Of a stretch of DNA of 49,034 bases, positions 5,601 to 23,039 are shown piece by piece; position 1 is the stretch's first letter; each line of letters starts with the position of its first letter. The notes below the pieces were generated by a model. It was not told the DNA's origin. It did not search any database and saw only the letters and a program-made list of their open reading frames with translations. Source of the DNA: Nitrospirae bacterium MYbinv3 (GTDB lineage: Bacteria; Nitrospirota; Thermodesulfovibrionia; Thermodesulfovibrionales; Magnetobacteriaceae); assembly GCA_002753395.1 (NCBI GenBank), contig PEAB01000007.1, positions 1 to 49,034 of the forward strand, in the 5' to 3' direction. The translations under genes and the position numbers were made by a program.

Positions 5601-6254
5601 TTACAGGGGACTGATTCTATACCAGAAGGTTATTAGGGAGCGTTCGGCTGGGTTGTTTTTCTTCTCGGAGATGATTTCAACTGCGTAGTATGCTGAGACA
5701 TATGTGCCTGTGTTTAGATCGTCGGTCATTCTAGTGTCAACAATCTTTGTATAAACGCGGTAATCCTTGGGATCGGCTGGGGCGCAGCCGGCGTTGACGC
5801 AAAAGTCGCTGATGATATCGGGATTAGTCTTGGCGTCGGAGGATGTCTTTTGTCCTGTACAGTTTAGCCAGTTATCCGAACCAACGGCTCCCGTGCATTT
5901 AATACCGGTTATGGGGTTATTAATCGTTGGTATACAAATGGTTGGTTTTTGAACCTTATCCAAAAGGCAGGCGGTACTCTGTACGCTGCCGTAGTCAGGG
6001 GTGTTAGCAGACTGATTCAACATATTGATAACGATGTCTGAGGCGCCTTTTCCAGCCTCAAGTGCAGAGGAGTAACGCTGGGTAATACCAGCTATGCGGC
6101 TGCCCTCAAGCGTCATAAACATTAGGGCGCCGGTTAGGGCTAAGGCAATCGTCGCAAACAACATCGTTATAACGAGTGCAAAACCCCTCTCGTTGTTCAT
6201 TTTACTTATACTTAGTCCATCTGTCTTTAGACTCATAGTCTTTAATCTTTTCAT
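5601..6254 (-). CDS. pilX: Minor pilin PilX, operon copy 1
   Basis: A 217-residue pilin-like protein. The class III-like leader ends NNERG at residues 20-24, followed by FALVITMLFATIALALTGAL, the hydrophobic N-terminal helix of PilX proteins, which often lack the canonical Glu5. Four or more cysteines in the middle may form disulfides. It is the last gene of the downstream pilus operon, 15 bases after pilW. It is paralogous to the pilX at 14457-15005, sharing the ITMLFA/LTGALMF core and the RYSS...A.G/RGA segment. PilX proteins help assemble or prime the pilus tip in the inner membrane and periplasm. Confidence 0.8.
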   Translation of the reverse strand: MKRLKTMSLKTDGLSISKMNNERGFALVITMLFATIALALTGALMFMTLEGSRIAGITQRYSSALEAGKGASDIVINMLNQSANTPDYGSVQSTACLLDKVQKPTICIPTINNPITGIKCTGAVGSDNWLNCTGQKTSSDAKTNPDIISDFCVNAGCAPADPKDYRVYTKIVDTRMTDDLNTGTYVSAYYAVEIISEKKNNPAERSLITFWYRISPL

Positions 6255-6269
6255 GGTGTCATCACACGA

Positions 6270-7664
6270 TCAAGGAAATATATTCGCAGTTTTTACGTCT
6301 AAGACCAGCAGCTTCCACCTGTAGTGTATATAGTTTGAGAGATTGTTTAAGTGATACGTCTTTACGGCCAACGTATAAGCTAAGCTATCCTCCCCTGTGA
6401 AGTTCACGTCAAACGGTACCGTAGGATCTGAAGTTCCAGGATTGGCAGGGTCGTCATAGTAGAAGTCATTGTCAAACTTTCCCTCGTGAGTCAGGGCAAA
6501 CACCTTTACTTGTTTTACTTTGCTGCGTACTAGAAGGGCTGTGCTTATGTCAGTACTTGTGCCGGTGCACCCGAGGGCGACCGTATCGCTCTTGCATTTG
6601 GAGGCGACTGTGGCCCCGCTTTCGGTTATCCATGTGTCAACTGCGCCGTTGGCGTTTGTGTCAAGCCCGATAGCAACCTGAAAATCGGCCACGCAGTCAA
6701 GTATTGGCTGCTCGTTTCTCTTGCCGTCGCTTTGGTTTATAGTGGTTCTGTACAAGGTATAGGATTTTGGGTGACACCTCGATGGAAAACTCGACACGTA
6801 TGTAGCAGCATTTGGCAGCGGGCGTTGCAAGTAGTAATCAACTCGGTTAAAAGGCATTCTCACCGTTGATGTATCCATGGAAGGTTTTGTGTATACTCCG
6901 TAGATCAGATATACGATATTGTTAATGGCCGGGTCGGGCAGCCCATTTGTGTTGGCATTATCAGGCCATGTCTGCACGGTATAGCCATATTGGCTGGAGG
7001 CGTTTTTAAAGATACTCTTTGTGTCAGAGGTAACCACGATTATCCTGTCTTTATCCGTGCAGCCTGGATCGCCGGTGAAGGTACCGGCCGCTCTTGGACA
7101 GAAATCTCTTGCAGGGTCATTCCACAGCTGGTTTTTCCATGAAGCGGAGACAGCGTCGTAGTACCTGATAGTCCATTTATATGCGGCTGTATCATTTCCT
7201 ACTAACTGCGACTTGACTGACAGGACGTCTGAGTCATCAAAGGTACTGACTGTGTCACCGGGGTTGGTATCGTTTGACAGCACTACGGCACGTGGTTCAT
7301 TGTTTGTTGCGTCGTTGAATGTGGTGGGGTCGGGTGTGTATTTTTGCGGCATGAACTGATCGTAATCGGTGTAGTTAGCGCTTCCACCGGTAACCGCCTC
7401 AGAGTAGGTGCCACCAGCTACGAGGATGGGCGCTGCGCCTGTTGGCAGACCAAAGCCGGCCATCTCAAGGTCTCTACGCACGAGCTCGATACTCAATGAC
7501 GATTCTATATTTGACTCTGCTATCTTCGTCTCCGACTTAAAGCTCTTAGACAGCGTGATAAATACAGAAAAGGTTGCCGCCATTACTATTGATAGTATAA
7601 ACAGCGTCACTATCAACTCCGCAATCGTAAGACCAGCTTCTCTGTTGCCCATGTTTTTCATCAT
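6270..7664 (-). CDS. pilW: Minor pilin PilW, operon copy 1
   Basis: A 464-residue large minor pilin. I place the start at the ATGATG at 7664, which overlaps the pilV stop as ATGA and has AAGG six to seven bases upstream; a longer frame opens at 7721 but runs deep into pilV. The leader MMKNMGNREAG is cleaved before LTIAELIVTLFIL, with the conserved Glu5. The conserved PilW block RMPFNRVDYYL, then RCHPKSYTLYR and LDCVADFQVAIGLDTNANG, lies in the C-terminal half. It shares these blocks with the PilW at 15024-16211, so the two are paralogues. The acidic DTNANGAVD loop may bind calcium. Confidence 0.85.
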   Translation of the reverse strand: MMKNMGNREAGLTIAELIVTLFILSIVMAATFSVFITLSKSFKSETKIAESNIESSLSIELVRRDLEMAGFGLPTGAAPILVAGGTYSEAVTGGSANYTDYDQFMPQKYTPDPTTFNDATNNEPRAVVLSNDTNPGDTVSTFDDSDVLSVKSQLVGNDTAAYKWTIRYYDAVSASWKNQLWNDPARDFCPRAAGTFTGDPGCTDKDRIIVVTSDTKSIFKNASSQYGYTVQTWPDNANTNGLPDPAINNIVYLIYGVYTKPSMDTSTVRMPFNRVDYYLQRPLPNAATYVSSFPSRCHPKSYTLYRTTINQSDGKRNEQPILDCVADFQVAIGLDTNANGAVDTWITESGATVASKCKSDTVALGCTGTSTDISTALLVRSKVKQVKVFALTHEGKFDNDFYYDDPANPGTSDPTVPFDVNFTGEDSLAYTLAVKTYHLNNLSNYIHYRWKLLVLDVKTANIFP

Positions 7665-8107
7665 AATGGCCTTATGTATGTCCTTGAGTGATGGGAAAAA
7701 TTCTGTCCCTGATACGACCATGTTACAGTGATATCAGCCCCTCTACTGTTACCGGCAGTTGTCCATACGTTCTTGGCAACCGTGTATTGAAAGTCCATGT
7801 TCTTATACCGCCTCGTGACGTTGTATGTGGAGCTGCCCGTCTGTACAAGTGATAGGTCTGCTGTTTTGGCCAGTCCTCTGAGCTTATCCATTTCCTCCTG
7901 TGTGACGGTGACAGCCATCTCTCTAAGGGTGTTCTTGACATTTGAACTCATTGAGTACATCATTGTCTGCAAAAGTCCCAGCGATACAGCTGTTAGGATC
8001 AACATCGACACGAGTACCTCTACCAGTGTAAAACCTTCTTGCGCTGGGTGTGTGATACACCTCTTGTCTTTATTTAATAACACATTCGCCACTGTCGTAT
8101 GCTCCAT
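7661..8107 (-). CDS. pilV: Minor pilin PilV, operon copy 1
   Basis: A 148-residue type IV minor pilin. The prepilin peptidase site is AQEG before FTLVEVLVSMLIL, with Glu5 present. The rest is a short globular domain. The gene overlaps the fimT/gspH-like gene by 38 bases and the pilW start by four. PilV proteins sit in the tip complex with PilW, PilX and PilY1. It is similar in size and layout to the PilV at 16216-16641, which has FTIVEALVSMVIL in the same place. Confidence 0.85.
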   Translation of the reverse strand: MEHTTVANVLLNKDKRCITHPAQEGFTLVEVLVSMLILTAVSLGLLQTMMYSMSSNVKNTLREMAVTVTQEEMDKLRGLAKTADLSLVQTGSSTYNVTRRYKNMDFQYTVAKNVWTTAGNSRGADITVTWSYQGQNFSHHSRTYIRPL

Positions 8108-8855
8108 TGCAATCTAAATCACACCACTTGCCCATCTTAATCCTTGTCATAGAAACGGTCAGACACGAGTATTCTGGGTAGCTGCTGTCATCGCATCCAG
8201 GAGAGCTTGCATTACAGCTTGTTGGAGTGGCTGCCCCTTGACAAGTAGTTGTTGGGTCTTCGGCGTTGCAGGCCGACGTTTTGTGGTCACAGGCCCTGCA
8301 GCTACTGTATAGCTGTAATTCAACGTTTGGAAAAGTAGAGGTAAGCGTCCCTCCGATCTCGGTTATAGCGATACCTTTATCCGTAAAGGCAAACACCTGT
8401 ATTGCGTCAAAGAGTGTTATTGGATCTGCCTGAGACTGCAGCGTCGCTGTGCGCAGGGTGACGTACCCGCCGGAGTCGGTTATCTTGCCATCGGAGGTAG
8501 AATTAACGGCGCATGTGCCGTTAGCGCTTAAATCTACTCCGTCGCACCTGTTCTGATAGGTTGTAAAGTCAAACCGCTGTGATGGTGTGGTATTGTTTAT
8601 AAAAATACCGAATGTCCTGTTCTCAGCCATAGACCTCACTCTCATCTCCGATAAGTCTGTATATAACTGCTTTATGTTTGATTCTATGTTGTTCTTGGTC
8701 TTAGTGCCAAGAAAAACAACCACGTTGTACGTAAACACCCCTACCAAGATACTCACTATAGTAATTACGACAAGTAATTCTATAAAGGAATACCCACGCT
8801 CGGTCTTCATCTCTCTAACCTGTGATATAGGGTGTTTACGTCTCATAACGTCCAT
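8070..8855 (-). CDS. FimT/GspH-type pseudopilin with cysteine-rich C-terminus, copy 1
   Basis: A 261-residue minor pilin. The leader ends KTERG, followed by YSFIELLVVITIVSILVG with Glu5; translation could also begin at Met4 or Met16. The middle resembles FimT/GspH (short helix then beta strands). The C-terminal third is unusual: it contains more than ten cysteines, in SSCRACDH, the segment YPEYSC, MTRIKMGKWC and a DLDCNGAYDSGEC tail. The same YPEYSC and TRIKMGKWC blocks end the paralogue at 16622-17233, so the cysteine module is a conserved feature. It follows pilY1 by five bases. Confidence 0.78.
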   Translation of the reverse strand: MDVMRRKHPISQVREMKTERGYSFIELLVVITIVSILVGVFTYNVVVFLGTKTKNNIESNIKQLYTDLSEMRVRSMAENRTFGIFINNTTPSQRFDFTTYQNRCDGVDLSANGTCAVNSTSDGKITDSGGYVTLRTATLQSQADPITLFDAIQVFAFTDKGIAITEIGGTLTSTFPNVELQLYSSCRACDHKTSACNAEDPTTTCQGAATPTSCNASSPGCDDSSYPEYSCLTVSMTRIKMGKWCDLDCNGAYDSGECVIK

Positions 8856-8860
8856 CTATT

Positions 8861-11800
8861 CTAGCGTTCAAGCCAGTGTATTATAGTTCCGGTTTTAGTT
8901 GACGATGGCGGATCAACAAAGGGCGGTGCGGATTCAGGGGTTATTCCGCTTAACCAGTTTGTTGTCCTATTACTAAGCGTTCCACTAGTAAATTGGTTAA
9001 AGTCGTTACCGGAGCCTACTCTGGTACCGCTGCCTGAACCGGGAGCCACGTGTAATGTGGATATTGCAGCCGTTGAAAGCTGTAACAGCAAGGTCCCTTG
9101 AAAATTACTTATAGAAGCGCTAGAACACTGACATGTTTTTACTGGTGTACAGGCAATACCTGTAGTACACTCACTATCTTTGCTGCAGGCGTTTGCAGTA
9201 AAGCCGCCACCGCAAGTCTTAGACGTGCTGGTTACGCATGCATATCCGGCTGGGCATGTGGTAGATGCGCAGTCAGTTGCAAAGACGGCATCTCCGGTTG
9301 CGCAGTTTAGCGCCCAAACTCTAGACCTTCCACCAAAGGCGCATATATCTGAGGATGGTTGTGTCGTAGAGAGATATGCTATGTATGCACTTGTAACAAC
9401 CGGATCGGATATGAGCCTTTCTCTGGCATACGGGATACTAGTGGTTGCATCTGTCTCGGCAGTGTCTAGATCAAACTTCCATGCAAAGTTCGTAGTAGCG
9501 CTGCTTTTCCCAGTGGTATAATCGGAGCATCTATTTGTACCTCCGCTTGTGTAATTAAGACCTCCACTCCTTAGGCAGCATCCTAGATAGGTCTCAGTTG
9601 AATCACAAAAGTGTATACCATAAATGCTATCTACATTTAGTGTGCTTTTTGGATAATCGTCAGAAGGAATAAAGTACTTTCCAGAGCCGGCAAAGAGATT
9701 GTAACTTTTACCCCCGCTAGGGCTAAAGCACTCTGCTGTGGTTACCTTTGCAGTAAACGGTCCTTTTGCAGTGGAGAAGACATTTTGATACTTCCAGCAG
9801 TTATTCCAGGTTTGGCAGTTGGTGCCGCTGCAAGCAACAGTTGGATCCGTGCCGGATATATATAATGAGGCTATATTACCTTGCATTCTGTATATGCTTG
9901 GTTTACAGATAAGACCTCCTGAACAATCGGCGTCTGTGGAACACGCTGTACCCGTTGAGGTACCGTCGCATGTCCCCTGCGGTTGGACATATCCAAACAT
10001 CACGTAGTCCGTATCACCATCACTGTTAATATCTACACCATCTGTAAAGAGTCTGCCGCCAAAGGCGTTATTAACAACAGCGCCGCTGCTGCCAAGAGGC
10101 GGGTTTTGTTTACCTTTGCTGATTATTGTCATTGTCGTAGGGTCTAATTTCAGCCAGTGAACCGTTAGAGGTTTATACGAGTTACCCATATAGGTCTGTG
10201 GTCCATTTAAGAACAAGACGAACTTATTACCGCCTCTGGTAACAACAGCGGGACCTGAGAAGCTAAAGCCTAGGTCGGGGTCTGAAAACTCCCACAGAAG
10301 TATCGGGTTTACAGGATCAGTGACATCAAAGGCAAAGTATGATGACATCCCTGTGCAGGTTCCGTTGGTTGCAGTGCTGTCAGGACATGTGTCCGTTGGC
10401 GGAGAGATAACGGGATCAGTTGATATACAGGTGCTGCCGCAAGAGGCGCTGCAAGCCGATCCTAGTCTCATCCCGCCTATGAGGATCTTCTGGCTGCCGT
10501 TGTAGAACATATAGGGATGTAGATCCACGTAATATATATGGCAATAGTTTGGATCGGAGAGGTATCTCAGGTATGGAAGAGAATGACGAGGGATAAAGGC
10601 CCACAACTCTTTGCCAAGGAGGTTAGTGTTTGTGTTGCCGTTTTCATCGACAAGTTTATCAACGTCGTTGGTGGATAGACCGCTTCTTGAGAGTTTACCC
10701 ATTTCAAAGGCGTGAAGCATCCCATCATTAGCCCCTACAAATGCTATAGAGTAATTTGCATACGATTCAACAAGCGGGGTGGAATAGACTATATCTCCCA
10801 GCTTCCATGTATTTGTAGTACCAGACAATGTAACGGTTCTACTCCTTGAACCAGTGGTATCCGACCCTCGTGTGTATGAAATTATTGAGTCATCTATGGC
10901 TGTTGGAGGGGTGCCTGATATATAGGTGTAAGAGCCGTCATCAGTAAAGGATGTGAGTGTTGAGCCTGTGTCATAATATACGTTTTCACCGCCGGAGCTT
11001 GTACCGCGCCAAACTATATAATCGGTTGCACCGGTAACAGCGCTCCATGATATAGTTATCTTCTTATTAGCGCTTGTAGTGGCAGCGTTCCTTTCATTTG
11101 AAAGCGGGGTTATGTTGCTGCCGTCAGATGCCGATACCTTATAGTAATATGTAGTACTTGCAGTAAGGGCGCCGCCGCTGGCATTAGCCGCTGAGTTCAA
11201 AGTGGGAGTGCTCAGGGTACTTAGATATGTATTAAAGTAAGCTTTATTGGCAGAAATAAATTGTACCAGCTTTCCGTTTGCCGCAGATTTGGGGTATGTA
11301 TCGCCTGCATCAACCTTAGCGTTTACATATAGTATCCGCTTGTTGGTATCAGTATCCAGCGGGCTTCTTTGAAATAGAAGCGTGCCAGATTCCCAGACAG
11401 GGACTACAGAATCAATGGACTTATCAATCAATTGTGCATTGGGTTTTCCATCAGCGTCTGAATCACTCCACTGGTGAACTACTAGCTGACTGCCAACAAA
11501 GTCAAACGCTATTATCCGATCTGAGACTAAATTTAAGACGTCATCAGGATTAGTGTCTTCTCTCATGTTTTGTACAGTAGCTGTATTGTAGAACCAGAGG
11601 TTGTTTAAATAACCAATCCATTTTAGCGTGACGCTGCTAGAAAAGTCCTTACTTGGATAAAAGGCGGCCTGCAGCACGTTGTCGCCTGATTTAACCTTGT
11701 CAGCCAACACTGAGGCTGATGTTCCGGCTGCTGCCCCCTTTGTAATCCTTTGAAATGTGGTTCTAAGAGATGTTTGTAAGGCATAACCGTCAGAAGCAAT

Positions 11801-13684
11801 AAAATAGTTGTCAGGCACATAGGCAACAGAGTCAGTTGTCCAATCCGAGTAGGGTGTTGTAGTGCTGGGACTTGTGTGGGTAGCGCTGTCGTAGGCAAAG
11901 CTGCCGTTAATAGCCGCATACTTGAGGAGGCTTGCATCGGTTCCAAAGGCAAAGATTGAATATAAGGTCAGTGTCTGGGTTCCTGACAGATCGCTCCGAA
12001 GATCCTGCGTATGCATAAAATAGGCCACATCCTCAAGCCCTCCCTTAGCGCCGCTAAAGTCAACATCGATCTGAGAGGCTGAAAAAGGGCCTGCCGCAAG
12101 ACAACTGCAAGGGGTGGTCGAAGTGCCGCAAGTTGATGACGATGACGATGACGTAGCGTAAGGCTCGCAGTTGTAACTTGTATTACCTCGTACAAAATCA
12201 GTCAGGCCGGAGGGCAGGTTTGCATCCTGAGTAGGGTTGCCATCTGTGATTAATATCACATAGCTTTGCGCACATGGAGCGTTAGTAGAGCCTCCGGATA
12301 AGGTAATATAGTTCTTGTAAGGATCTGCCGCAGCGCTAATTGTATAATCACCGCTGTGATACTGCGGGCCAGTGCCGCCGTTGCCTGAGCCATAGCCGCC
12401 TGCTCCTACCGATGAGGCCTTCTGGGCAAAGTATCCAACCACGCTCCACAATGCCTCGCCTAGGGGCGTATAAGTAGAAGGCGTCATCTGATTTATCGTA
12501 CTTACAACGGTTGCGTAGTTATTGTTGCCTATATTTACCTGTACCTTTCCACCGTCATTACCACCAGATGTATCATAATAAGTAAGACCCCATCTTGCCT
12601 TATTGCCTACCTCCTGTATGACGCCTTGGACAGGGGCAACAACCTTAGCCTGTATCCTCCATCTAAAAGCGGTACTAGCGTTATCGTAGAAATAGGGTAT
12701 TGCTGTATACCCCCCCCCTGTTCCGTCAACCCTGAAGGTTGTTATGGTTGGATTTGGCGGTGTGCCTGAGCTGGAAAAGCAGGTTCCGTTGTCATTATAA
12801 GTAGTGCTTGAGGAGCTGACGTCGCAGTACTTGTTTTCACCACCAGCGCTTGTCCCACGCCATATCCTGTATGAGGCTGCCCCGCTAACGCTGCCCCATA
12901 CTAGACTTATCTGTTTCTTTGTGCTTGAGGTTGAGGCGCTGCGTTCGTTTGAAGCAGTGGTACAGTTGCTGCTTGCATCACAAGCGGTTATTTTATAGTA
13001 ATACGTAGTGCTTGCAGAAAGGGAGCCGCCTGTTGCACCTTGGGTTGCAGTGGTTAAGGAGGGCACACTAAGGCTTACACAGTTCTGACCGTTATCGGTT
13101 AATGAGGTATATAGTGAAGGGCGGCAGATCTTTTTATAGATATCGCCGCTGCCATCTTCAGCAAAAATCCTGTCATAGCCTGAAGGTTCTGCAACATAGC
13201 TAGCATTGATTGCGGTAGTCATAATCTTACCGCCAGTTAGGACTAACTTTGCAACGTCAACCCTTTTCATCGTCAACCAGTTTAGAAAGTTGCCGTCCCA
13301 TTCCGTAGACAGCTTTGCGCGTGAAGATTTTAGCACAGATGGGGAGAATTTATCGTTAGCGCAGCATCCGGATGTATATGTGCCGCCACCCGTATATGTG
13401 TACCAATAAGTAGAGTCAAACAAACCATAGTACTGGGTGTTTGTATCAAACTCTGTGCATGGAGAACCCGAACTTGTGCACTTGTTTGAACCGCCGCCAT
13501 CAGGGTAAGCGGGATACATAAGCATGCTCAGGGAGTTATCCAGGAGGATCATTATATTGGGAGTAACATTGGCTGTAACAAATGGAGGCGTGGAACAATA
13601 AGTTGACATGGCGCCTTCAGCACATCTGCCGTGCAAAAATACAATCAACAATATCAATATATAACTAGTGTAAAATCTTTTCAT
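8861..13684 (-). CDS. pilY1: PilY1-type pilus tip adhesin/assembly protein, copy 1
   Basis: A 1607-residue secreted protein. A signal peptide (about 1-25) is followed by a von Willebrand A-like region starting NIMILLDNSLSM near 44-55, with the DxSxS metal site. An FnIII-like module (about 208-313) interrupts this region, and a homologous one lies at about 825-930. The PilY1 beta-propeller starts near 961 (VGANDGMLHAF) and has a calcium loop DINSDGDTD near 1215. Two cysteine-rich insertions (ACSTDADCSGGLIC and ACSKDSECTTGIAC) flank or interrupt the propeller. Start: AAAGGAG ten bases before ATG 13684. First large gene of the downstream pilus operon. Known relatives act in pilus extension, adhesion and calcium-dependent retraction control. 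Confidence 0.9.
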   Translation of the reverse strand: MKRFYTSYILILLIVFLHGRCAEGAMSTYCSTPPFVTANVTPNIMILLDNSLSMLMYPAYPDGGGSNKCTSSGSPCTEFDTNTQYYGLFDSTYWYTYTGGGTYTSGCCANDKFSPSVLKSSRAKLSTEWDGNFLNWLTMKRVDVAKLVLTGGKIMTTAINASYVAEPSGYDRIFAEDGSGDIYKKICRPSLYTSLTDNGQNCVSLSVPSLTTATQGATGGSLSASTTYYYKITACDASSNCTTASNERSASTSSTKKQISLVWGSVSGAASYRIWRGTSAGGENKYCDVSSSSTTYNDNGTCFSSSGTPPNPTITTFRVDGTGGGYTAIPYFYDNASTAFRWRIQAKVVAPVQGVIQEVGNKARWGLTYYDTSGGNDGGKVQVNIGNNNYATVVSTINQMTPSTYTPLGEALWSVVGYFAQKASSVGAGGYGSGNGGTGPQYHSGDYTISAAADPYKNYITLSGGSTNAPCAQSYVILITDGNPTQDANLPSGLTDFVRGNTSYNCEPYATSSSSSSTCGTSTTPCSCLAAGPFSASQIDVDFSGAKGGLEDVAYFMHTQDLRSDLSGTQTLTLYSIFAFGTDASLLKYAAINGSFAYDSATHTSPSTTTPYSDWTTDSVAYVPDNYFIASDGYALQTSLRTTFQRITKGAAAGTSASVLADKVKSGDNVLQAAFYPSKDFSSSVTLKWIGYLNNLWFYNTATVQNMREDTNPDDVLNLVSDRIIAFDFVGSQLVVHQWSDSDADGKPNAQLIDKSIDSVVPVWESGTLLFQRSPLDTDTNKRILYVNAKVDAGDTYPKSAANGKLVQFISANKAYFNTYLSTLSTPTLNSAANASGGALTASTTYYYKVSASDGSNITPLSNERNAATTSANKKITISWSAVTGATDYIVWRGTSSGGENVYYDTGSTLTSFTDDGSYTYISGTPPTAIDDSIISYTRGSDTTGSRSRTVTLSGTTNTWKLGDIVYSTPLVESYANYSIAFVGANDGMLHAFEMGKLSRSGLSTNDVDKLVDENGNTNTNLLGKELWAFIPRHSLPYLRYLSDPNYCHIYYVDLHPYMFYNGSQKILIGGMRLGSACSASCGSTCISTDPVISPPTDTCPDSTATNGTCTGMSSYFAFDVTDPVNPILLWEFSDPDLGFSFSGPAVVTRGGNKFVLFLNGPQTYMGNSYKPLTVHWLKLDPTTMTIISKGKQNPPLGSSGAVVNNAFGGRLFTDGVDINSDGDTDYVMFGYVQPQGTCDGTSTGTACSTDADCSGGLICKPSIYRMQGNIASLYISGTDPTVACSGTNCQTWNNCWKYQNVFSTAKGPFTAKVTTAECFSPSGGKSYNLFAGSGKYFIPSDDYPKSTLNVDSIYGIHFCDSTETYLGCCLRSGGLNYTSGGTNRCSDYTTGKSSATTNFAWKFDLDTAETDATTSIPYARERLISDPVVTSAYIAYLSTTQPSSDICAFGGRSRVWALNCATGDAVFATDCASTTCPAGYACVTSTSKTCGGGFTANACSKDSECTTGIACTPVKTCQCSSASISNFQGTLLLQLSTAAISTLHVAPGSGSGTRVGSGNDFNQFTSGTLSNRTTNWLSGITPESAPPFVDPPSSTKTGTIIHWLER

Positions 13685-13736
13685 TGGTCTACACTCCTTT
13701 TGTCTAATTTTCTAGCAAAGATTAGCGATCATAATC

Positions 13737-14075
13737 TTAATATACCAAGACACTTGTAACAACGCCTTTGTTTATAACAAGTTTTACCTTATTGCCTTTT
13801 CTTATGTCAGATAAAGAGATGGGTTTGTTGCTTGTCGTCGTATAAACCGCCTTATCGATGTTGAACCTTGCCTCTCCTAACACGATGTATAGCGATTCGT
13901 AGGACACCTCTTGAACAATGCCTGCTATGTCTTGCACATCGTCTGATTTTGGTTGTGTGTGATTGATTTTTGAGGTGTTGCGTGGATAATCATGTTTTTT
14001 GATATTAATGGCATATGCTAGATTGGCGTCTATCGCTATAATCAAGGCTGCTGTTAATACTAATCCTTTTTTCAT
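13737..14075 (-). CDS. Small secreted protein, PilY2-like
   Basis: A 112-residue protein with a clear signal peptide (MKKGLVLTAALIIAIDANLAYA). The mature C-terminal half reads as a small beta-barrel: GIVQEVSYESLYIVLG, then SLSDIRKGNKVKLVINKG. This pattern resembles Pseudomonas PilY2 and DUF5666-like proteins, and its place just upstream of pilY1 supports a PilY2-like role, but identity is too low by eye to be sure. Its leader AAAGGAGTGTAGAC before the ATG is the same as that of the following pilY1 gene. It heads the downstream pilus operon; the upstream operon has no such gene. Confidence 0.55.
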   Translation of the reverse strand: MKKGLVLTAALIIAIDANLAYAINIKKHDYPRNTSKINHTQPKSDDVQDIAGIVQEVSYESLYIVLGEARFNIDKAVYTTTSNKPISLSDIRKGNKVKLVINKGVVTSVLVY

Positions 14076-14140
14076 CCGTCTACACTCCTTTCCATTTAGA
14101 AACCCTTATACCACGTTGCGTTTATACCAGCATTACAATA

Positions 14141-14206
14141 GAAGGGGAGACACTGTTCTCCCCTCAGACCCCTCTGAAAGGGGTCCAGACCCCTTGATGA
14201 CCCCAT
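14141..14206 (-). repeat. Dispersed GC-rich palindromic repeat, copy C
   Basis: Inverted copy of the family: on the minus strand it reads GGGGTCATCAAGGGGTC, then AGGGGTCTGAGGGGAGAAC and a closing TCTCCCCTTC hairpin arm. It lies in the 381-base gene-free stretch 14076-14456 between pilX copy 2 and the PilY2-like gene, with its hairpin end toward the PilY2-like start. Confidence 0.65.
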
Positions 14207-14379
14207 TAAAGTACAATTTTTTTGGTTACAACTTAGTATTATATTAAATGTTATAACATATTTATCGCGATCAGGTGACTTCAAATACTATGCCACTCAA
14301 TAATATAGGCAATGTCACCTTAGAATGCGTATCTGTAAGTTGAGTGTTAAAGGCAGACGCAGATCTTACGACAAGCATA

Positions 14380-14425
14380 TGACAGAATGTGGCATGTCAC
14401 CGACAAATATTGTCAGTGATTGCAG
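14380..14425 (-). promoter_or_regulatory. Conserved dyad element upstream of the downstream pilus operon
   Basis: The plus strand shows TGACA-N5-TGGCA, then GACAAATATTGTCAGTG and ATTGCAG. The same arrangement occurs at 22234-22281 upstream of the other pilus operon, matching at about 37 of 46 aligned positions with one 2-base gap. The core GACAAATxTTGTC is a dyad suited to a dimeric regulator. It is about 300 bases upstream of the PilY2-like start and 32 bases after the pilX copy 2 stop. A palindromic overlap with a terminator role is possible, but no T run follows. Confidence 0.5.
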
Positions 14426-14456
14426 TGTGCCAAGCGTTAAGGCTTAGGAAGTGTGT

Positions 14457-15005
14457 TTAGTCTACTATTAGGCTAAAGAGGAAGATCATCTGTACGGATT
14501 CCCTAAGCAGTGTAGGGTTTTCAGCATATATTGAGACTGTGGTTAAGTTGTATGTGTGATTAGTTATTATGTACTTGGCATCGGCTAACTTTGTATAAAC
14601 CCTGTATTCTCCTAGGTCGGATATGAAATCGGGACATACCTTTGGGTCAGCGCTTGTAGCATTTAGCACGGTGCATACATTGCTGTTATAATCCGTATAA
14701 GAATCGCATGTACTCCACTGATAGGTGTTATCGGGATCGTAGGTTGTTTGGGAGATCTTAGCAGTTGTACATGCGACATTTTGGACAGTGCCAAAGGCAG
14801 GTGTGGTATTACCAGAGACTATAAAACTCTTTGCTATGGCCACAGCCCCTCTTGCTGCATCCATAATGGAGGAGTAGCGCTTTGAAGAACCTGAGATTTT
14901 TGAGCCCTGCAACACGATAAACATTAATGCACCTGTTAACGTTAAAGCTAGCAGTGCAAACAACATAGTCAACACCAGGGCAAAGCCATCATTCTTCTTT
15001 ATCAT
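14457..15005 (-). CDS. pilX: Minor pilin PilX, operon copy 2
   Basis: A 182-residue PilX-like minor pilin. I prefer the ATG at 15005 because AGAGG lies eight bases before it and it gives a short leader, MIKKNDG, cleaved before FALVLTMLFALLALTLTGAL; an ATG at 15023, right after the pilW stop, is the alternative. Like copy 1 it lacks Glu5. Conserved RYSS...ARGA follows the helix. Several cysteines in the middle probably pair. It ends the upstream pilus operon. Confidence 0.8.
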   Translation of the reverse strand: MIKKNDGFALVLTMLFALLALTLTGALMFIVLQGSKISGSSKRYSSIMDAARGAVAIAKSFIVSGNTTPAFGTVQNVACTTAKISQTTYDPDNTYQWSTCDSYTDYNSNVCTVLNATSADPKVCPDFISDLGEYRVYTKLADAKYIITNHTYNLTTVSIYAENPTLLRESVQMIFLFSLIVD

Positions 15006-15023
15006 TTTTGAACCTCTAAGCAT

Positions 15024-16211
15024 TTACATGAGATTTAGCGGTTTAGCTACCATTTTATATAGTTTCCACCGGTAGTTTGCATAGTTTGGTAAGGTTGTCA
15101 GATCAAAATTCTTAAGCATAATGTCGTTGTCTCCAACAGTAATTGTTGCGCTTGCATATGTAAAGTCAGGATCGAATTGCCCCTCCTGCGCTAGAACAAA
15201 TACTTTAATCTCTTTTAGCCAATCTATCTGCGTTGAAACGGAGGTAGGCAAGGCGCTGCCGGTCCAGGTATCAATAATATTGTCTGCGTTTGTGTCTAGA
15301 CCAAAGGCCACTTGAAAGTCTGCCACGCAGTCGAGCAGAGGCTGCTGGTTTCTCAGACCGTTTGTGTGACTGATAACTGCTCTGTAAAGCGTGTAAGTAT
15401 TTGGATTGCATCTTGTTGGGAAGTTGCTGGATGGTCTGTATAAGAAGTAGTCAACACGATTAAAGGGCATCCGCAGATTACTTGTGCTGTCAACACCGTA
15501 CATGATAAAAGCAAGGTCTATGCTTCCAGGTGTGGGCATATTTACAATATCATGATTAGGCCAGTTAACTATGTTAAAATACCAGTTACCACCAGCAACC
15601 TGAATGGTCTTGTTAATTGGTGAGACAAATATTACCCTCTCGGTGTTTTTAAAGTCATAACGAGTATCGTTCCACGATCTGTACACCCAGGTGGCGCCGT
15701 TGTAATACAGGAATGTCCATTTCTCTGATACATTTGTCAAGGCAACAGCAAGTGACTTTATTGTCAGCACATCGGAGTTATTTCCGCCGGAGTTGTCGGA
15801 AAAAGCATAGGGTCTTGGCTCATTCGCTGGGGCGTCGTTTAGGGATGCAGGATCGGGTGAGTAGGTACCATCAGAGGCTGCCTCTGTGTAATTTATTCCC
15901 AGGGAGGGAGGGAAATACGCCTTTGGCAGGCCATAGCCGCCCATCTCTGTGTCATATCGCAGGATATCAAGGCCCGCTATATCTTCCATGTGAGTCTCCG
16001 TCATCTTTGACACTCCCTTAAAGCTCTTAGACAGAGTCATAAAAGATGCAAAGGTCGCTGCCATTATTGCGGTCATGATAAACAGCGTTACGACAAGCTC
16101 TGTCAGCGTAAACCCATCTTCTTTAAACCTCGTCAATTTGGTCTTTATACTATATAGGCTTTTAAAAAATAGATTTGTAATTAGATTTACCATTGGCAAT
16201 GTATTAGTCAT
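15024..16211 (-). CDS. pilW: Minor pilin PilW, operon copy 2
   Basis: A 395-residue PilW with a long leader (about 33 residues) ending KEDG before FTLTELVVTLFIM, Glu5 present. The C-terminal half has RMPFNRVDYFLYRP, RCNPNTYTLYR and LDCVADFQVAFGLDTNADN, nearly the same wording as copy 1, while the middle is shorter. It starts four bases after the pilV stop. The unusually long pre-sequence includes a weakly hydrophobic stretch (MVNLITNLFFKSLY); a later start is possible but no better ribosome site is obvious. Confidence 0.85.
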   Translation of the reverse strand: MTNTLPMVNLITNLFFKSLYSIKTKLTRFKEDGFTLTELVVTLFIMTAIMAATFASFMTLSKSFKGVSKMTETHMEDIAGLDILRYDTEMGGYGLPKAYFPPSLGINYTEAASDGTYSPDPASLNDAPANEPRPYAFSDNSGGNNSDVLTIKSLAVALTNVSEKWTFLYYNGATWVYRSWNDTRYDFKNTERVIFVSPINKTIQVAGGNWYFNIVNWPNHDIVNMPTPGSIDLAFIMYGVDSTSNLRMPFNRVDYFLYRPSSNFPTRCNPNTYTLYRAVISHTNGLRNQQPLLDCVADFQVAFGLDTNADNIIDTWTGSALPTSVSTQIDWLKEIKVFVLAQEGQFDPDFTYASATITVGDNDIMLKNFDLTTLPNYANYRWKLYKMVAKPLNLM

Positions 16212-16215
16212 TGGG

Positions 16216-16641
16216 TCATCTGCTTAACAAGGTGCTTGCGGCGTAGGTTGAGGTTTCACCCTTTAATGACCATGTCAGGGTAATATCTACACGTTTGTTA
16301 TCGGCACCAAGAAGTGTTACCACCTTGTTGATGGTATAGTTAATACTTGTATTTCTATACTGTCGAGTAAAGGTATTGGGTGAGGTACACTTTTCGCACG
16401 TACCTGTTAATACGCTATCGAAATTGGCGTCTCTGGTAGCCTCCATCTCCTCAGTAGCAGTATGTATGGCCTCATCTCTGATCTCGTTCTTTAGGGTAAC
16501 ATCGCTGGCAATTGTGATGGCCTGAAGGAGGCCAAGCATGACAAATACCAGTATAACCATACTGACGAGGGCCTCTACTATCGTAAAACCCGTTTCATTG
16601 TGCAGTTTGATCTTGCTGGCACTATCGCAGTTGACAGACAT
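16216..16641 (-). CDS. pilV: Minor pilin PilV, operon copy 2
   Basis: A 141-residue minor pilin. The leader ends HNETG before FTIVEALVSMVIL with Glu5. A CEKC pair lies mid-protein, absent from copy 1. The gene overlaps the fimT/gspH-like gene by 20 bases. Size and position match the PilV at 7661-8107. Confidence 0.84.
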   Translation of the reverse strand: MSVNCDSASKIKLHNETGFTIVEALVSMVILVFVMLGLLQAITIASDVTLKNEIRDEAIHTATEEMEATRDANFDSVLTGTCEKCTSPNTFTRQYRNTSINYTINKVVTLLGADNKRVDITLTWSLKGETSTYAASTLLSR

Positions 16642-17233
16642 TGTTACACCATTTTCCCATCTTTATTCTTGTCAACGTAACCACTATACAGGAGTACTCT
16701 GGATACTCTACATCACTACAGTCAGACGTTGTGTCGTAGGTCTTGCAGAGGGTGTTACTTGGGTCTTCTGGATCGCAGCCGGCGGTTGTGTGGTCACAGG
16801 CCTTGCACTCGCTGTAGAAGGTAGCGTCGATGTTTCCGTAGGCTCCGGAATCAAAAGAGCCCTTTATACCAAAAGTAAGGTTGTTCTTTGTTTCTTTATT
16901 TATGGTTGTGCTGTTGAGTGTCACCGTTCTAACAACAGAGTCGGTGCCTGTGTCCATAATACTTTCGTTGTTGTTTTTATCGACCATCAATTCATAGCCA
17001 GAAATACTGGCTGGATTGCTCCAGGACAGGCCGTAGGTTTTTCTCTCTGAGAATGCTTTTGACTTAATCTCCATTAGATCGCTATACATCTTTTTTGTAT
17101 CAGACTCGATCTGAGTCTTTGTTTTTGAGCCTGTGAACTGACTAACCGCGAGCGTTATGATAATGGCTGCAATAACTAGTACCACGAGCAGTTCGATCAT
17201 GGTAAAGCCTTTATAGTCTTTCAACAAGCTCAT
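16622..17233 (-). CDS. FimT/GspH-type pseudopilin with cysteine-rich C-terminus, copy 2
   Basis: A 203-residue minor pilin with a very short leader (MSLLKDYKG) before FTMIELLVVLVIAAIIITLA, Glu5 present. The C-terminal part contains CKACDHTTAGCDPEDP, YPEYSC and LTRIKMGKWC, matching the cysteine-rich end of the paralogue at 8070-8855 while the remainder has diverged and is shorter. It lies 27 bases after pilY1 copy 2. In type IV pili such subunits belong to the initiating tip complex. Confidence 0.8.
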   Translation of the reverse strand: MSLLKDYKGFTMIELLVVLVIAAIIITLAVSQFTGSKTKTQIESDTKKMYSDLMEIKSKAFSERKTYGLSWSNPASISGYELMVDKNNNESIMDTGTDSVVRTVTLNSTTINKETKNNLTFGIKGSFDSGAYGNIDATFYSECKACDHTTAGCDPEDPSNTLCKTYDTTSDCSDVEYPEYSCIVVTLTRIKMGKWCNNVCQLR

Positions 17234-17260
17234 CTTCTCTTGTCTCGCATTAGCAGATGA

Positions 17261-20200
17261 TCACTTTGTTAGCCAATGGATCATTTTATTCTTTTCAGTT
17301 GGGTCAATCTTCGGTGGCGGATCACCAGAAGGCATACCGGCAAAGTTAGGGGTATACTGCGCGCCAGCGCCGAAGGTATTGATGATATTAACCTGATTGA
17401 TGGCCGCAGTTGAAAGCTGCAATAACAACGTCCCGCGAACTGACGACGTATTAACAATTTTACCTGAGCATACATTACTAGGCACTGTGCCCCCGGTAGC
17501 ACAGTTAAAACCCCAGATACGTGAATTTCCAGAGAAGGAACAGACATCGTCCGTTGGTTTTGCTGTGACAAACATTACGTAGTTTGCACCTGTAGTTACA
17601 GGATCTGTTATCCCTCGTTCCATGTAATAAGGTGAGACTATAGGGTCAAGTCCAACGTACCACGCAGAATTTGAAAATACGCCTGTTGATAGATTGGTGC
17701 ACACGGTATTTGGCGAGGACTGCGAACCAGCAGTGACATTAGGTATGTTTATGCTGCTGACGCTGCAGTTGTTTAGATAGTCACACAAGAATGGTACCCC
17801 GCCAATTATATCAGGTTTGGCCGTAGATGGACCAGAATTCGTGTTGTATAACTCGGTTGCAGAAAAGTATCTGCCAGAGGAGAAGTACAAATAGTAGTTA
17901 TCAAAGCACTTGTCTGTGGCGACCCTTGCGGTAACAGGGTATCCCTCTGAGTTTGCAAAAGTGACATAGTTCTTATCAAAAGCCCACAGTGTCGGGTCGG
18001 AGCCGTTTATGTGCAGCTTGACAACACCGCCGCCCCATCTTGGATAGCCATCAGCGTTTAATCCAAAGTATCTCGAATAGCCGAAGAAGACAAAATCGGT
18101 ATTACCGTCTTCGTTTAAGTCAATACCCTTTGTAAATAGCCTGCCTCCAAAGCTGTTGGTGAAACCCGCACCCATATCAATGGTGTATGACGTGTTTATA
18201 GTGTCGTCGCTATTGAGTTTTAAGACGTACATCTTGAGGTTCTGATTGGTTGACCCGTCGTAGCCGTTGGGACCAGACAGAAATAACACGTATTTGACGT
18301 TATCCCTATTGATTACGGCGGGGCCAGAGAATGTAAACTTCAACGATGGGTCAGTAAACTCCCAGAGAAGTTTCGGATTTTTAGGATCCTTGATGTCAAG
18401 GGCAAAGTATGAGGACATGCCAACACATGAGGATGTAGATGGGTTGCTGCACGTATCTGTGGGTGGATTGACGCTGGAGGTGCCCCCACATCCCCCGCCT
18501 AGTCTCATGCCGCCTATGAGGATGCGCTTACTGCCATAGGAATACAGGTATGGACTCATATCCACCATATAGGAATGACAGTAATTTGGATCGGCATAGA
18601 ATCTCAGATATGGAAGGGTGTTTTTAGGGATAAAAGACCACAACTCTTCCCCTAAGACAATGCTGTCTGCTGATCCTGTGGTAAGTTGTGCCTTCGAGCT
18701 GCCAGACAGTCCTGATGTGTTAAGTTTACCGATCTTAAAGGCATGAAGCATACCGTCGTTGCCGCCCACAAAGGCAACACTGTAATCGCTGTAGACGTTG
18801 CTATACTTTACGATAAGAGGGGTGGAGTGTATGATGTCCCCTAACTTCCACGTACCTGTTACTGTGGAGTCTACTGGGTTTGTAAGAGGCAGTGTCCTGC
18901 TTCTATATTCGGAGTAGTCGGTGCCGGTGATGTAGGAGATTAACCTGTCAGCCTGCGTGGTGTCAGCGGCGTTAACAGATCCGTCACCGTTTAGGTCACC
19001 TCCAAGGTAGCTGCTAAAACAGGTCTTGTTGGATGTTTCAAAGGTTACCAGGTTACCACCAGAGCAGGTGCTGCCCCCTGTTGTTTTGGGATAGGTGGTG
19101 CTGCTGTCATTTACATATATCTTTCGTGAAGACGGAGTTCTCTTAAACAATATCTTTCCGCTTTCCCAGATAAGTTTAACATCGTCAAGTGTCTTATCGA
19201 CTAGCGCTGTATCGGCAACACCGTCACCGTTTGTATCCTGCCAGCTATGGACGATCAACTGATCGTTAACGAAGTCAAAGCTGACGATCTTATCTGTCAC
19301 TAGGTTCAGTACGGAGTCATTTACCGTGTCCTCACGTATATTGGATACATTGATTGTGGCGTCTTCATAGAACCAGAAATTGTTCAGATAACCCAGCCAC
19401 GAAAGGGTTAGTGTGCTGGAGGGTGTTGTTATGTTAAAGAGTTTGTTAGGATAAAACACGGCCTGTAGGATATTTGAACCTTCCCTTGATTTCTCACCCA
19501 GCACGGAGGCCGCCGTGCCAGAGGCCGCCTTTGCAGATATAGAAAGAAATGCGGACCTAAGGGCGTTCTGTAGTTGAGAAGCGTTGCTAGCGCTTTGATA
19601 CACGCCGCCGCCGTTTGTCGCCGTATTCTGGAGCAGGACCACAGGGCTGCACTCATCCGTTCTGCCGTTGTCCTCACCGTTAAAGACCGTGTATGTGGTA
19701 ATGTACTCACTGGCCTTGGTTGGCGTCTGTGTAAAGTCGGTTATCTTTTTGTGTTTCGCAATATATGAAAGGTCATCCAGGTACTTACTGCCGCCGTAGA
19801 ACAGGCAGCTATTGTCGGAGTCGTTGTCGCCATCAGGGCTGTTTGCAGGGTTTACCAGGCTGGTTACGCTTGGGTGCAGGTCTGCTGTGGAGACGCCGTC
19901 GGTTACAATGAGTATGTTGTTCTGTCTGCATGTATAGTTCACTGGGTTATGCAGGAGGTCGAAGTCTGCGGTGTTTAGACGGAGGTCAGACCTGTTTGCA
20001 AAGTACCCTAAAGCGTTATAGAACGCCTCGGAATAAGGTGTCCATGTAGAGGCCGTAATGGCGTTTATGCTGTCTATGAGCGGTTGCTTGGCTGCATCGA
20101 GCGTTGCCTGATCGTCGGTTGTGGGTATGTAGGATATTATCTTGCCACCATCGGCGTTTGACCCAGAAGGGCAGGTCATGTTTTGCGTTGAGGCACATTC

Positions 20201-22054
20201 TGAGACTGAGCCGTCTGTATTGAAGACCATAACGCCGAACTTTATAAGGTTGTAAAAGTCATGGATAAGCCCTGTTGGAGCAGAAGATTTATCGAGTCTG
20301 GCCTGATAAGTCTTTATCGGAAAGCCAAGCTGTGCCAGAGTGCCAACGTTCAAAAGAAACGCTGGAAGGGTTCCTGCTCCATTGACTCCCTGAGTCAAGA
20401 GGGCGTCACCTGTTGGGTCAACCACTGGAAAGGCCGTTACGCCGTTGCAATAGTTGGCAATACCTGTTGCAACGCAGCTGTCGCAGGTGTGACTCTGGCT
20501 TTGACCTGAACCAATGTTGCAAGAGCCGCCGCTCTTAAAGCAATCACCGACGTATGGCAGACCGGCATTGGGGCTTATTGCACAAACCCCGGCTAAGGTG
20601 TTGGCCTGGGCGTAAGTGGGTGGTGCGCTAGAAAGCGTGCCGTAGTAGCGGTCGCAGTCGTTCTCCATCCTTGTGATATCTCCGTTGCCCATAGCGGCTG
20701 CCGTGCAGGGGGTACCGCAGAACCAGCACGACTGCATCACGTGATTAAACGCTGGCAGTGTTGCGTTACTGCCGGTAGCTGGGGGATCGGGTATACAACG
20801 CGATGTATAGAGTTTTGCCTGACCGAGGTTACCGTACAACCACTCCCAGATAGCCTGTTGGCAATCGCTGTTGCCAAAATTCCCTAGAAACACATCCACC
20901 CTTGTTGTTCCGCCGTCGGAGCTTCCAAAGTCCGGATACTTTCCATTACTAGGGCCGCGTACGCCAAATGTTACTGCATTTGTTCCTGTATTGACTTCCT
21001 TTAGGTATCTCATGCTGTTCCAGCCCCTTGTCTCACCTATGAGTTTCTGATAGCTGCTGTCGTACTTGCCTCCGGTGAGCACGAGTTTTTGGACGTCCAT
21101 CTTGGAGGCGGTCAGCCAATTTAGGAAGTTACCGCTGGCTCTAAAGGTCGTAACATCAGTCCAGCCGGCGTTGAGGGTAAGACACAGGTAGCTAGTATTA
21201 ATATAAGTGCATGTACCTGAGGAGAAGGAGCCTGAGTAAGGTGTGAAGTAAGAGCAGTTACCGTCGTCTGCGAAGGTCGTCCCCTGCATAGCCTCATAAA
21301 GCTGTGTCGGGGTATAGTAGCCAACGTATGTTGTTGCGTCGTTGTAAGAGTTGTCATAGCCCGGGTATATCCCTGTTGTAGGGTTTGTGTTAAAGGACGT
21401 AGTGCTGTAGTAAGCTGGGTCATACATGCTGAAGGAGTTGTCTACCATTAATAAGAGATTTGGTTTTAAAGTCTGTGGCATAAATGGTGGTTTTGCGCAG
21501 TAAGTGGTGACTGAGCTAATAGGAACGGGTGTCGGCGTAGGTGTGGCAGACGGTGTGGGTGTAGGTGAGGCTGTTGGGCAAATAGGTGTCGGTGTGGGTG
21601 ATGGAGATGCTGTCGGCGTAGGTGTCGTTGTTGGCGTAGGAGTAGGTGTTGGCGTAGGAGTAGGTGTTGGCGTTGTAGTAGCTGTCGGTGTAGGAGTCGG
21701 CGTGGAGGCAAGGGTAAAAGTGGCTGTAACGTTCTGTGCTGTATTGCCCATGTTAAAGGTACATGTGGTTGATGAACCTGAACAAACCCCGGAACCTGAT
21801 GACCAGCTTGAGAAAACGTATCCAGCAGATGGTGTTGCGGTCAGAGTTACGTCAGCAGTATTGCCGTAGGAATAGTTGCAACTACCTCCGCAGTTAATGT
21901 TTCCGTCTGCGCTTGTTACGGTACCACTACCTGCCTTTGAAACCGTTAAAGTTTTGTTTGCCTCACTTATGGCTGGGAAGAGGGCGCTTATCAGAAGTAG
22001 TAAAACTACTACTATGGCTTGGTTCCGCCTTTTATATTTCAGAATCTTTTTCAT
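17261..22054 (-). CDS. pilY1: PilY1-type pilus tip adhesin/assembly protein, copy 2
   Basis: A 1597-residue secreted protein, first gene of the upstream pilus operon. Order: signal peptide (about 1-32); an InlB-like bacterial repeat domain (about 33-112, LTVSKAGSGTVTS...CGGSC); a threonine-proline linker (about 115-180); a von Willebrand A-like region opening LLLMVDNSFSM near 200-210; a dockerin-like loop DLNGDGSVNAAD near 1015; and the PilY1 propeller from about 1070 (VGGNDGMLHAF) with calcium loop DLNEDGNTD near 1315. It lacks the FnIII modules of copy 1. AAGGAG lies nine bases before the ATG, and an extended -10 box lies at 22095-22103. Confidence 0.9.
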   Translation of the reverse strand: MKKILKYKRRNQAIVVVLLLLISALFPAISEANKTLTVSKAGSGTVTSADGNINCGGSCNYSYGNTADVTLTATPSAGYVFSSWSSGSGVCSGSSTTCTFNMGNTAQNVTATFTLASTPTPTPTATTTPTPTPTPTPTPTPTTTPTPTASPSPTPTPICPTASPTPTPSATPTPTPVPISSVTTYCAKPPFMPQTLKPNLLLMVDNSFSMYDPAYYSTTSFNTNPTTGIYPGYDNSYNDATTYVGYYTPTQLYEAMQGTTFADDGNCSYFTPYSGSFSSGTCTYINTSYLCLTLNAGWTDVTTFRASGNFLNWLTASKMDVQKLVLTGGKYDSSYQKLIGETRGWNSMRYLKEVNTGTNAVTFGVRGPSNGKYPDFGSSDGGTTRVDVFLGNFGNSDCQQAIWEWLYGNLGQAKLYTSRCIPDPPATGSNATLPAFNHVMQSCWFCGTPCTAAAMGNGDITRMENDCDRYYGTLSSAPPTYAQANTLAGVCAISPNAGLPYVGDCFKSGGSCNIGSGQSQSHTCDSCVATGIANYCNGVTAFPVVDPTGDALLTQGVNGAGTLPAFLLNVGTLAQLGFPIKTYQARLDKSSAPTGLIHDFYNLIKFGVMVFNTDGSVSECASTQNMTCPSGSNADGGKIISYIPTTDDQATLDAAKQPLIDSINAITASTWTPYSEAFYNALGYFANRSDLRLNTADFDLLHNPVNYTCRQNNILIVTDGVSTADLHPSVTSLVNPANSPDGDNDSDNSCLFYGGSKYLDDLSYIAKHKKITDFTQTPTKASEYITTYTVFNGEDNGRTDECSPVVLLQNTATNGGGVYQSASNASQLQNALRSAFLSISAKAASGTAASVLGEKSREGSNILQAVFYPNKLFNITTPSSTLTLSWLGYLNNFWFYEDATINVSNIREDTVNDSVLNLVTDKIVSFDFVNDQLIVHSWQDTNGDGVADTALVDKTLDDVKLIWESGKILFKRTPSSRKIYVNDSSTTYPKTTGGSTCSGGNLVTFETSNKTCFSSYLGGDLNGDGSVNAADTTQADRLISYITGTDYSEYRSRTLPLTNPVDSTVTGTWKLGDIIHSTPLIVKYSNVYSDYSVAFVGGNDGMLHAFKIGKLNTSGLSGSSKAQLTTGSADSIVLGEELWSFIPKNTLPYLRFYADPNYCHSYMVDMSPYLYSYGSKRILIGGMRLGGGCGGTSSVNPPTDTCSNPSTSSCVGMSSYFALDIKDPKNPKLLWEFTDPSLKFTFSGPAVINRDNVKYVLFLSGPNGYDGSTNQNLKMYVLKLNSDDTINTSYTIDMGAGFTNSFGGRLFTKGIDLNEDGNTDFVFFGYSRYFGLNADGYPRWGGGVVKLHINGSDPTLWAFDKNYVTFANSEGYPVTARVATDKCFDNYYLYFSSGRYFSATELYNTNSGPSTAKPDIIGGVPFLCDYLNNCSVSSINIPNVTAGSQSSPNTVCTNLSTGVFSNSAWYVGLDPIVSPYYMERGITDPVTTGANYVMFVTAKPTDDVCSFSGNSRIWGFNCATGGTVPSNVCSGKIVNTSSVRGTLLLQLSTAAINQVNIINTFGAGAQYTPNFAGMPSGDPPPKIDPTEKNKMIHWLTK
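21515..21711 (-). repeat. Low-complexity Thr-Pro linker minisatellite inside pilY1 copy 2
   Basis: On the plus strand this is a run of GGTGTAGG/GGCGTAGG-like hexamers; read in frame on the minus strand it gives TPTPTP repeats with a few A, S, I and C interruptions. It encodes a flexible linker between the N-terminal repeat domain and the von Willebrand A-like region. The hexameric unit makes length variation by slippage likely. Confidence 0.85.
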
Positions 22055-22996: not shown

Positions 22997-23039
22997 TTTT
23001 ATCACCTTCTATAATACCCTGATTAGACCAAACGCATCG

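Follow-up and report, generated by a model that had tools for sequence, protein, structure and literature searches.

Positions 5601-22054 of contig PEAB01000007.1, part of a 3.7-Mb draft genome of Nitrospirae bacterium MYbinv3 analyzed here as a window of 49,034 nucleotides, encode two type IV pilus tip gene sets, all on the minus strand. Read from 22054 down to 5601, the order pilY1, fimT/gspH, pilV, pilW, pilX occurs twice, as set B and then as set A. Comparison of these genes with their relatives makes it probable that both are complete type IVa tip sets allowing one pilus machine to carry either of two PilY1 heads, that the pair is not a recent copy, and that the head is an exchangeable module joined to the rest of PilY1 at a conserved QA.FYP motif.

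The ten open reading frames (ORFs) lie where the initial annotation had placed them, and the paralogy that it proposed was borne out by BLASTP, in which each gene retrieved its partner. All five A/B pairs are homologous, with 37-44% identity (E = 1e-173 for PilY1, 3e-89 for PilW, 2e-40 for FimT, 2e-30 for PilX and 2e-23 for PilV). The motifs cited in its favor, RMPFNRVDY and LDCVADFQVA in PilW and YPEYSC and TRIKMGKWC in FimT/GspH, are present in both copies, and the N-terminal halves of PilY1 are indeed the divergent part, A and B being 32% identical over the head and 48% over the C-terminal segment. The sets had been described as lying end to end; they are neighbors, but a small exported ORF intervenes (Table 1).

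Both sets show the cluster layout of pilY1 with fimU/fimT, pilV, pilW and pilX. Pfam N_methyl was matched by six of the eight minor pilins and the PilW domain by both PilW proteins; the PilX proteins of both sets, without a curated Pfam PilX match, were named by position and paralogy alone. The window genes are identified as PilY1 because a profile of their two C-termini had as its sole match the crystal structure of Pseudomonas aeruginosa PilY1 (3HX6, E = 7e-11), which corresponds to the C-terminal beta-propeller. A 24-row profile that includes proteobacterial PilY1 matched the same structure at 5e-60, and Pfam PilY1 matched 16 of its 24 rows. The EF-hand-like calcium motif of this C-terminal domain, given as Dx[DN]xDGxxD in the accessible part of PMC8833165, is found in both proteins (Table 1) and in 19 of 24 family rows. 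In the heads, motifs resembling the metal ion-dependent adhesion site (MIDAS) of VWA domains were recognized, and the A-head alignment is invariant at D21, S23, S25, T378 and D453. Sequence searches of Pfam, NCBIfam and PDB with the heads returned only a weak Fn3 match (E 0.04) in A; an InlB-like repeat and a linker were recognized by sequence search before head B.

To compare the parts of PilY1, the proteins were cut at three conserved places: the head start (YC..PPF, with the MIDAS-like D.S.SM), QA.FYP and GDI..STP. The nearest relatives of the window genome examined are three species of the same genus (G001, G002 and G003). Head A is carried by window A and by G001_2 (68% identity to head A), G002_1 (60%), G003_A (72%) and, in another genome of the family, G006a (61%). 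Head B is carried by window B and by G001_1 (83% identity to head B), G002_2 (71%), G011b (59%) and G016b (60%), and more distantly by G050 of another family; in G003, the B copy runs into a contig end and is without its head. The A-headed proteins of the sister species, whose heads are 60-72% identical to A and 33-34% to B, have bodies that are 66-71% identical to B and 47-49% to A. All six PilY1 copies of these three species, with either head, have B bodies (C segment 66-71% to B and 47-51% to A). G011 and G016, two species of another genus, carry a B head on a body of their own genus, the G011b and G016b bodies being 76-79% identical to the other PilY1 of the same genome. G004 and G010, close relatives by AtpA, share 89% identity in the C segment and 75-92% in the minor pilins, versus 33% in the head, and the head of G010 is closer to that of Desulforhabdus, from another phylum (48%). 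Window A and G006a are alike in the head and also in the body (67%). In the G016 locus (L145, 4824-9958), the B-headed pilY1 is read in two overlapping frames, through a frameshift or an assembly fault.

Among 190 pairs of 20 PilY1 proteins (G007, G009, G003_B and both G016b pieces being omitted), 18 of the 47 body-similar pairs have heads below 40% identity and 9 of the 38 head-similar pairs have bodies below 52%; in the 29 pairs similar in both parts, the two identities lie at most 12 points apart. In the body tree, which omits G009, A is sister to G006a and B to its genus, each with support of 100/100. Approximately unbiased (AU) tests, computed under LG+G4 as were all AU p-values below, rejected a single clade of A-head proteins on the body tree (p = 7e-65) and a single clade of B-body proteins on the head tree (p = 4e-82). 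The head and the body of PilY1 thus do not share one common history. Sliding identity along G001_2 is B-like to residue ~165, A-like to ~760 and then B-like again; G010 has its joint at ~550, and both joints fall at most 40 residues before QA.FYP. From these sequences, at least three separate head exchanges, joined just before QA.FYP, appear to have taken place. Assembly error is an unlikely source of the mosaic, since the separate assemblies of G001 and G003 share it, with 82% identity in the head and 88% in the body C segment. The divergence of the heads is not the product of drift alone: heads have been exchanged between bodies. In these three events the body beneath the new head is of the type that goes with the minor pilins of that genome. 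That the body follows the minor pilins as a strict rule was rejected, three events being in its favor and one, G006a, against it.

The history of the minor pilins was followed in two kinds of tree. The PilW tree has 48 rows, namely both window sets and 46 loci taken from the 119 numbered L015-L093 and L124-L163, and the concatenated minor-pilin trees have 26 rows; the search of named genomes is represented by the best 80 of 108 matches, and the family genomes G007, G009, G014 (near-identical to G004) and G017 are omitted from the minor-pilin trees although PilY1 matches are present in them. Set B clusters with G001, G002 and G003 in the PilW tree and in the concatenated trees (100/100). Set A clusters with other genera of the family, in a group of 12 rows (97/98) and in one of 13 rows (100/97). 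Forcing A and B into one minor-pilin clade cost 44 log units and was rejected (AU p = 0.0014), and both sets lie inside a single family clade (100/100). The genes of G001 match NZ_JMFO01000001.1, from Candidatus Magnetobacterium casense MYR-1, and the window genus is thus a genus of magnetotactic Nitrospirota. The B set is common to all four species of the genus examined, and A-type minor pilins were found within the genus only in the window species. The other three species have one PilW each, of B type, although the G003 assembly is 56% complete and absence from it is weak evidence; two PilW were found in 2 of 19 family genomes. In a poorly resolved one-gene species tree of AtpA, the genus takes the position of set A and not that of set B.

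A recent tandem copying event does not explain the two sets. The duplicated cassette by which the initial annotation had explained the pair is unsupported as a simple or recent event: the A genes are not each closest to their B partners, given the rejected A+B clade and the separate affinities of the two bodies. The observation that it had named as pointing to separate acquisition, each set grouping with a different outside lineage, was largely made for the minor pilins, with the qualification that both sets still fall inside one family clade. Because of this shared clade, an ancient duplication with later losses and a transfer inside the family are both possible origins.

An ancient duplication that predates the separation of the family's genera comes close to an even chance. 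Under it, the other species of the genus would later have lost A apart from its head, and B would have disappeared elsewhere. B branches below all other family sets, including that of the early-branching G008 (99/99), and its placement above G008 was weakly rejected (p = 0.027); moreover, the A head with its small ORF is found genus-wide. Several losses would be required, however, and no second genus has A and B minor pilins together, since G006, one of the two genomes with two PilW, has a pair that is not A plus B. Arrival of the whole of set A from elsewhere in the family, next to a set B that was already resident, is possible but distinctly less probable. The clustering of A with other genera and the single PilW, without A-type minor pilins, of the three sister species would fit such an arrival. 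Part of A must nevertheless predate it, because the A head and the preceding small ORF occur in all four species, with B genes next to them in both species for which the contigs reveal the neighborhood; the AtpA tree, for what one poorly resolved gene is worth, favors A as the inherited set, and the best donor candidate reached no more than 51%. A simple tandem duplication of one cassette in this lineage, with heads then diverging under selection, is very unlikely. It would account for adjacent sets with the same order, five paralogous genes and a common family clade, but conflicts with the rejection of the A+B minor-pilin clade and with the sister groups of the two bodies, and an A head on a B body in sister species is beyond the reach of divergence alone.

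The mosaics themselves could be attributed to gene conversion of bodies between paralogues within each genome, instead of to head exchange, as the two PilY1 proteins of a genome share their body (74-79%) in G001, G002, G011 and G016; a single ancient event of this kind in the genus would be indistinguishable from a head graft. We consider conversion improbable as the general explanation. Bodies cluster by orthologue across G001 and G003 and not by genome (99/98 and 100/99), so that conversion is not ongoing, G010 has a foreign head despite a single PilY1 match, and no paralogue pair with near-identical bodies was seen within one genome.

The genome search for a pilus core called for by the initial annotation revealed consecutive genes for pilM, pilN, pilO, pilP, an AMIN/STN protein and a secretin (G000, C162), with one full-length PilM match in the genome, together with T2SSE-type ATPases. 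Two paralogous sets with different heads accompany one PilMNOPQ core, as far as is visible, and their most likely role is therefore to provide a single machine with two alternative type IVa pilus tips. A comparable arrangement is described for Myxococcus xanthus, where three PilY1/minor pilin clusters are served by one machine, according to the accessible text of PMC7541494. By analogy with known tips, PilX-PilW-PilV-FimT of each set would cap the fiber, with PilY1 on top; the C-terminal propeller, or body, would dock on the minor pilins and the VWA-like N-terminal head would be outermost. The one PilMNOPQ machine would build pili bearing either of the two heads, and heads would have moved between bodies at the joint just before QA.FYP, the body usually staying with the resident minor pilins. 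The earlier proposal of two tips on one machine holds for the paired sets, the different heads and the core; their alternative use, the head as the seat of binding specificity and recombination at the joint as the mechanism are what we infer beyond the gene order, paralogy, tree positions, mosaic PilY1 proteins and single PilMNOPQ cluster, which are directly observed.

A broader reading, to which we give even weight for and against, is that PilY1 in this Nitrospirota family is a two-piece protein whose heads form a pool circulating between species and are attached at a single fixed position to bodies that remain with the resident minor pilins. A genome would then gain a second pilus specificity by acquiring another full set (window, G006) or by adding another head to a set that both heads share (G001-G003, G011, G016). 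The A head, in this reading, would travel with its own small exported partner. Such a division bears on the binding targets of PilY1 heads and on the tolerance of the tip complex for head variation. Natural mosaics offer test pairs with the same body and minor pilins but unrelated heads (G004 and G010, or the two PilY1 of G001), and others in which a single head type occurs on different bodies (window A and G001_2). Structural and binding work would also benefit from the joint, which would mark the boundary between a binding and a docking part of PilY1.

Several points weigh against these interpretations. The curated Pfam PilY1 model misses both window PilY1 proteins, and neither head has a Pfam VWA match, the VWA assignment being read from motifs. 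A search of the window genome with that PilY1 model was negative, as were its controls, and does not argue for absence. AlphaFold2 models of the heads were too poor to use, with a mean predicted local distance difference test score of 31 for head A (5 rows) and 27 for head B (2 rows). The 18 and 9 discordant pairs are not independent and derive from about three events. Window A and G006 have minor pilins only 41-50% identical although their PilY1 proteins are alike throughout, and a clade of window A with G006a was rejected for the minor pilins (p = 0.0002). The body therefore tends to stay with the minor pilins and yet can move. The genome also has 4 secretins and, above the cut-off, 13 matches to T2SSE-type ATPases; it therefore encodes further type IV filament machines, and the tips could belong to one of them. 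Finally, the organism is known here as a draft genome alone.

In Pseudomonas, pilY1 comes after the minor pilins, and the pilY1-first order had been singled out as noteworthy in the initial annotation. It proved to be usual here: pilY1 is first at 15 of the 17 family loci that have pilY1 and pilW together (last at one and mixed at one; 7 further loci of the 24 have no pilW in reach) and at 12 of 14 scorable loci of the order (16 loci, 2 without pilW). Among 79 named loci, mostly from other phyla, pilY1 is first in 33, last in 18 and mixed in 4, and 24 are without pilW; a few places in these counts appear under two locus numbers. The order is therefore characteristic of this PilY1 family branch rather than of the window genome. 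The G006 locus (L132, 2296-12934) runs fimT, pilV, pilW, pilX, an extra pilin, a small ORF and pilY1 A, with pilY1 last, an order opposite to that of the other family loci.

Several PilY1 clusters per genome, a constant C-terminus with a variable N-terminus, and VWA variants are already published (PMC7541494, PMC13190605, PMC10374093, PMC9956873); the comparisons that follow are limited to the accessible portions of the papers cited. Clusters 1-3 of M. xanthus resemble the present locus in comprising several full sets of PilY1, FimU, PilV, PilW and PilX for one machine, in the conserved C-terminus and different N-terminus of PilY1, for which alternative tips were proposed (PMC7541494, PMC13190605), and in having a helper gene, tfcP, immediately upstream of pilY1.1 (PMC13190605). 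They differ in that the clusters are separate, that PilY1.1/1.2 are ascribed to duplication and 1.3 to whole-gene transfer, and that the text available describes no head/body mosaics, mentioning 'domain rearrangements' once and in general terms (PMC7541494, PMC13190605). In Acinetobacter, the tip adhesin ComC (PilY1) is likewise variable in its VWA head, its locus is exchanged by recombination and an insertion in the VWA fold alters function; there, however, the whole tip cluster swaps as a cassette or the VWA domain gains an insert, whereas the present exchanges affect only the head and leave a resident body in place (PMC10374093). Xylella fastidiosa (PilY1-1 to -3) has two minor pilin and PilY1 operons per genome with different mutant phenotypes, but head exchange is not reported in the accessible text (PMC9956873). 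Several tip complexes on one filament have also been proposed for the Myxococcus Kil pilus, which is a Tad and not a type IVa pilus (PMC12075869, PMC13190605). The open-access literature searched yielded no case of a head being replaced on a resident body at a fixed joint, which is no proof that none has been published; no open-access paper on PilY1 in Magnetobacterium was found, nor, in the open-access text accessible, one on the topic of its type IV pili.

The small exported ORF between the two sets occurs in 5 of 19 family genomes, always just before a head-A pilY1, whatever the body. A direct search of 176 genomes of the order retrieved 6 such ORFs, all adjoining a pilY1; the sixth, a weak match in G033, lies right before a pilY1 with an A-related head. 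On first view the ORF seemed exclusive to the A head. Iterated profiles hint at a broader and rapidly changing family of small exported proteins encoded ahead of pilY1, so that the link may not be exclusive: 46 of 105 pilY1 genes have some such ORF and 22 are joined by the profile, in counts that are post hoc, drawn from partly redundant loci and include a few of the 46 that look spurious. Many loci from Nitrospirota, Desulfobacterota and Aquificota (L148, L150, L154, L161, L031, L040, L043, L059 and others) have such an ORF immediately ahead of pilY1; the ORFs are of two kinds, one with two conserved cysteines. Twelve were scanned, and none matched a Pfam family above the cut-off. They possibly form an unnamed family of PilY1 helpers. 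Pseudomonas has a PilY2. In M. xanthus, TfcP, whose gene lies upstream of pilY1.1, aids calcium binding by PilY1.1, as stated in the accessible parts of PMC8833165 and PMC13190605; a TfcP-like helper role for the small ORF would be a reasonable guess, no more. A GC-rich palindromic element, present as a single copy in the window, precedes the small ORF at 14140-14200.

Table 1. Coordinates of the two tip gene sets and their PilY1 segments in the window
Feature	Positions	Strand	Remarks
pilY1, set B, 1597 amino acids	17261..22054	-	signal peptide, InlB-like repeat, Thr-Pro linker, VWA-like head, PilY1 body
B leader	21515..21952	-	divergent InlB B-repeat (Pfam Flg_new_2, E 1e-12) and Thr-Pro linker; coordinates from residues 35-180
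Head B, residues 185-863	19466..21502	-	MIDAS-like DNSFSM
Body B, QAVFYP to end	17264..19465	-	PilY1 beta-propeller, EF-hand-like DLNEDGNTD
fimT/gspH-like minor pilin, set B	16622..17233	-	
pilV, set B	16216..16641	-	
pilW, set B	15024..16211	-	
pilX-like, set B	14457..15023	-	without Pfam match; paralogue of set A copy
Small exported protein, 112 amino acids	13737..14075	-	directly before pilY1 A; start context ggagtgtagac same as pilY1 A
pilY1, set A, 1607 amino acids	8861..13684	-	signal peptide, VWA-like head with Fn3-like insert, PilY1 body with second Fn3-like copy
Head A, residues 29-671	11672..13600	-	MIDAS-like DNSLSM
Body A, QAAFYP to end	8864..11671	-	EF-hand-like DINSDGDTD
fimT/gspH-like minor pilin, set A	8070..8855	-	
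pilV, set A	7661..8107	-	
pilW, set A	6270..7721	-	
pilX-like, set A	5601..6254	-	without Pfam match; paralogue of set B copy

Promoter and terminator scans around both operons gave results near chance level. The two sets are flanked on one side by a HEPN and nucleotidyltransferase (MNT-type) pair at 22267-23005, directly upstream of pilY1 B, and on the other by an ORF of the PD-(D/E)XK transposase family at 4428-5381, on the opposite strand just past pilX A. A HEPN/MNT-type pair is also found in G003, between pilY1 B and fimT B (L128, 2966-3767). Elsewhere in the window, among cobalamin genes, positions 29946-32519 encode a subtilase fused to FG-GAP repeats and an InlB-like repeat of the same repeat family as that of pilY1 B.

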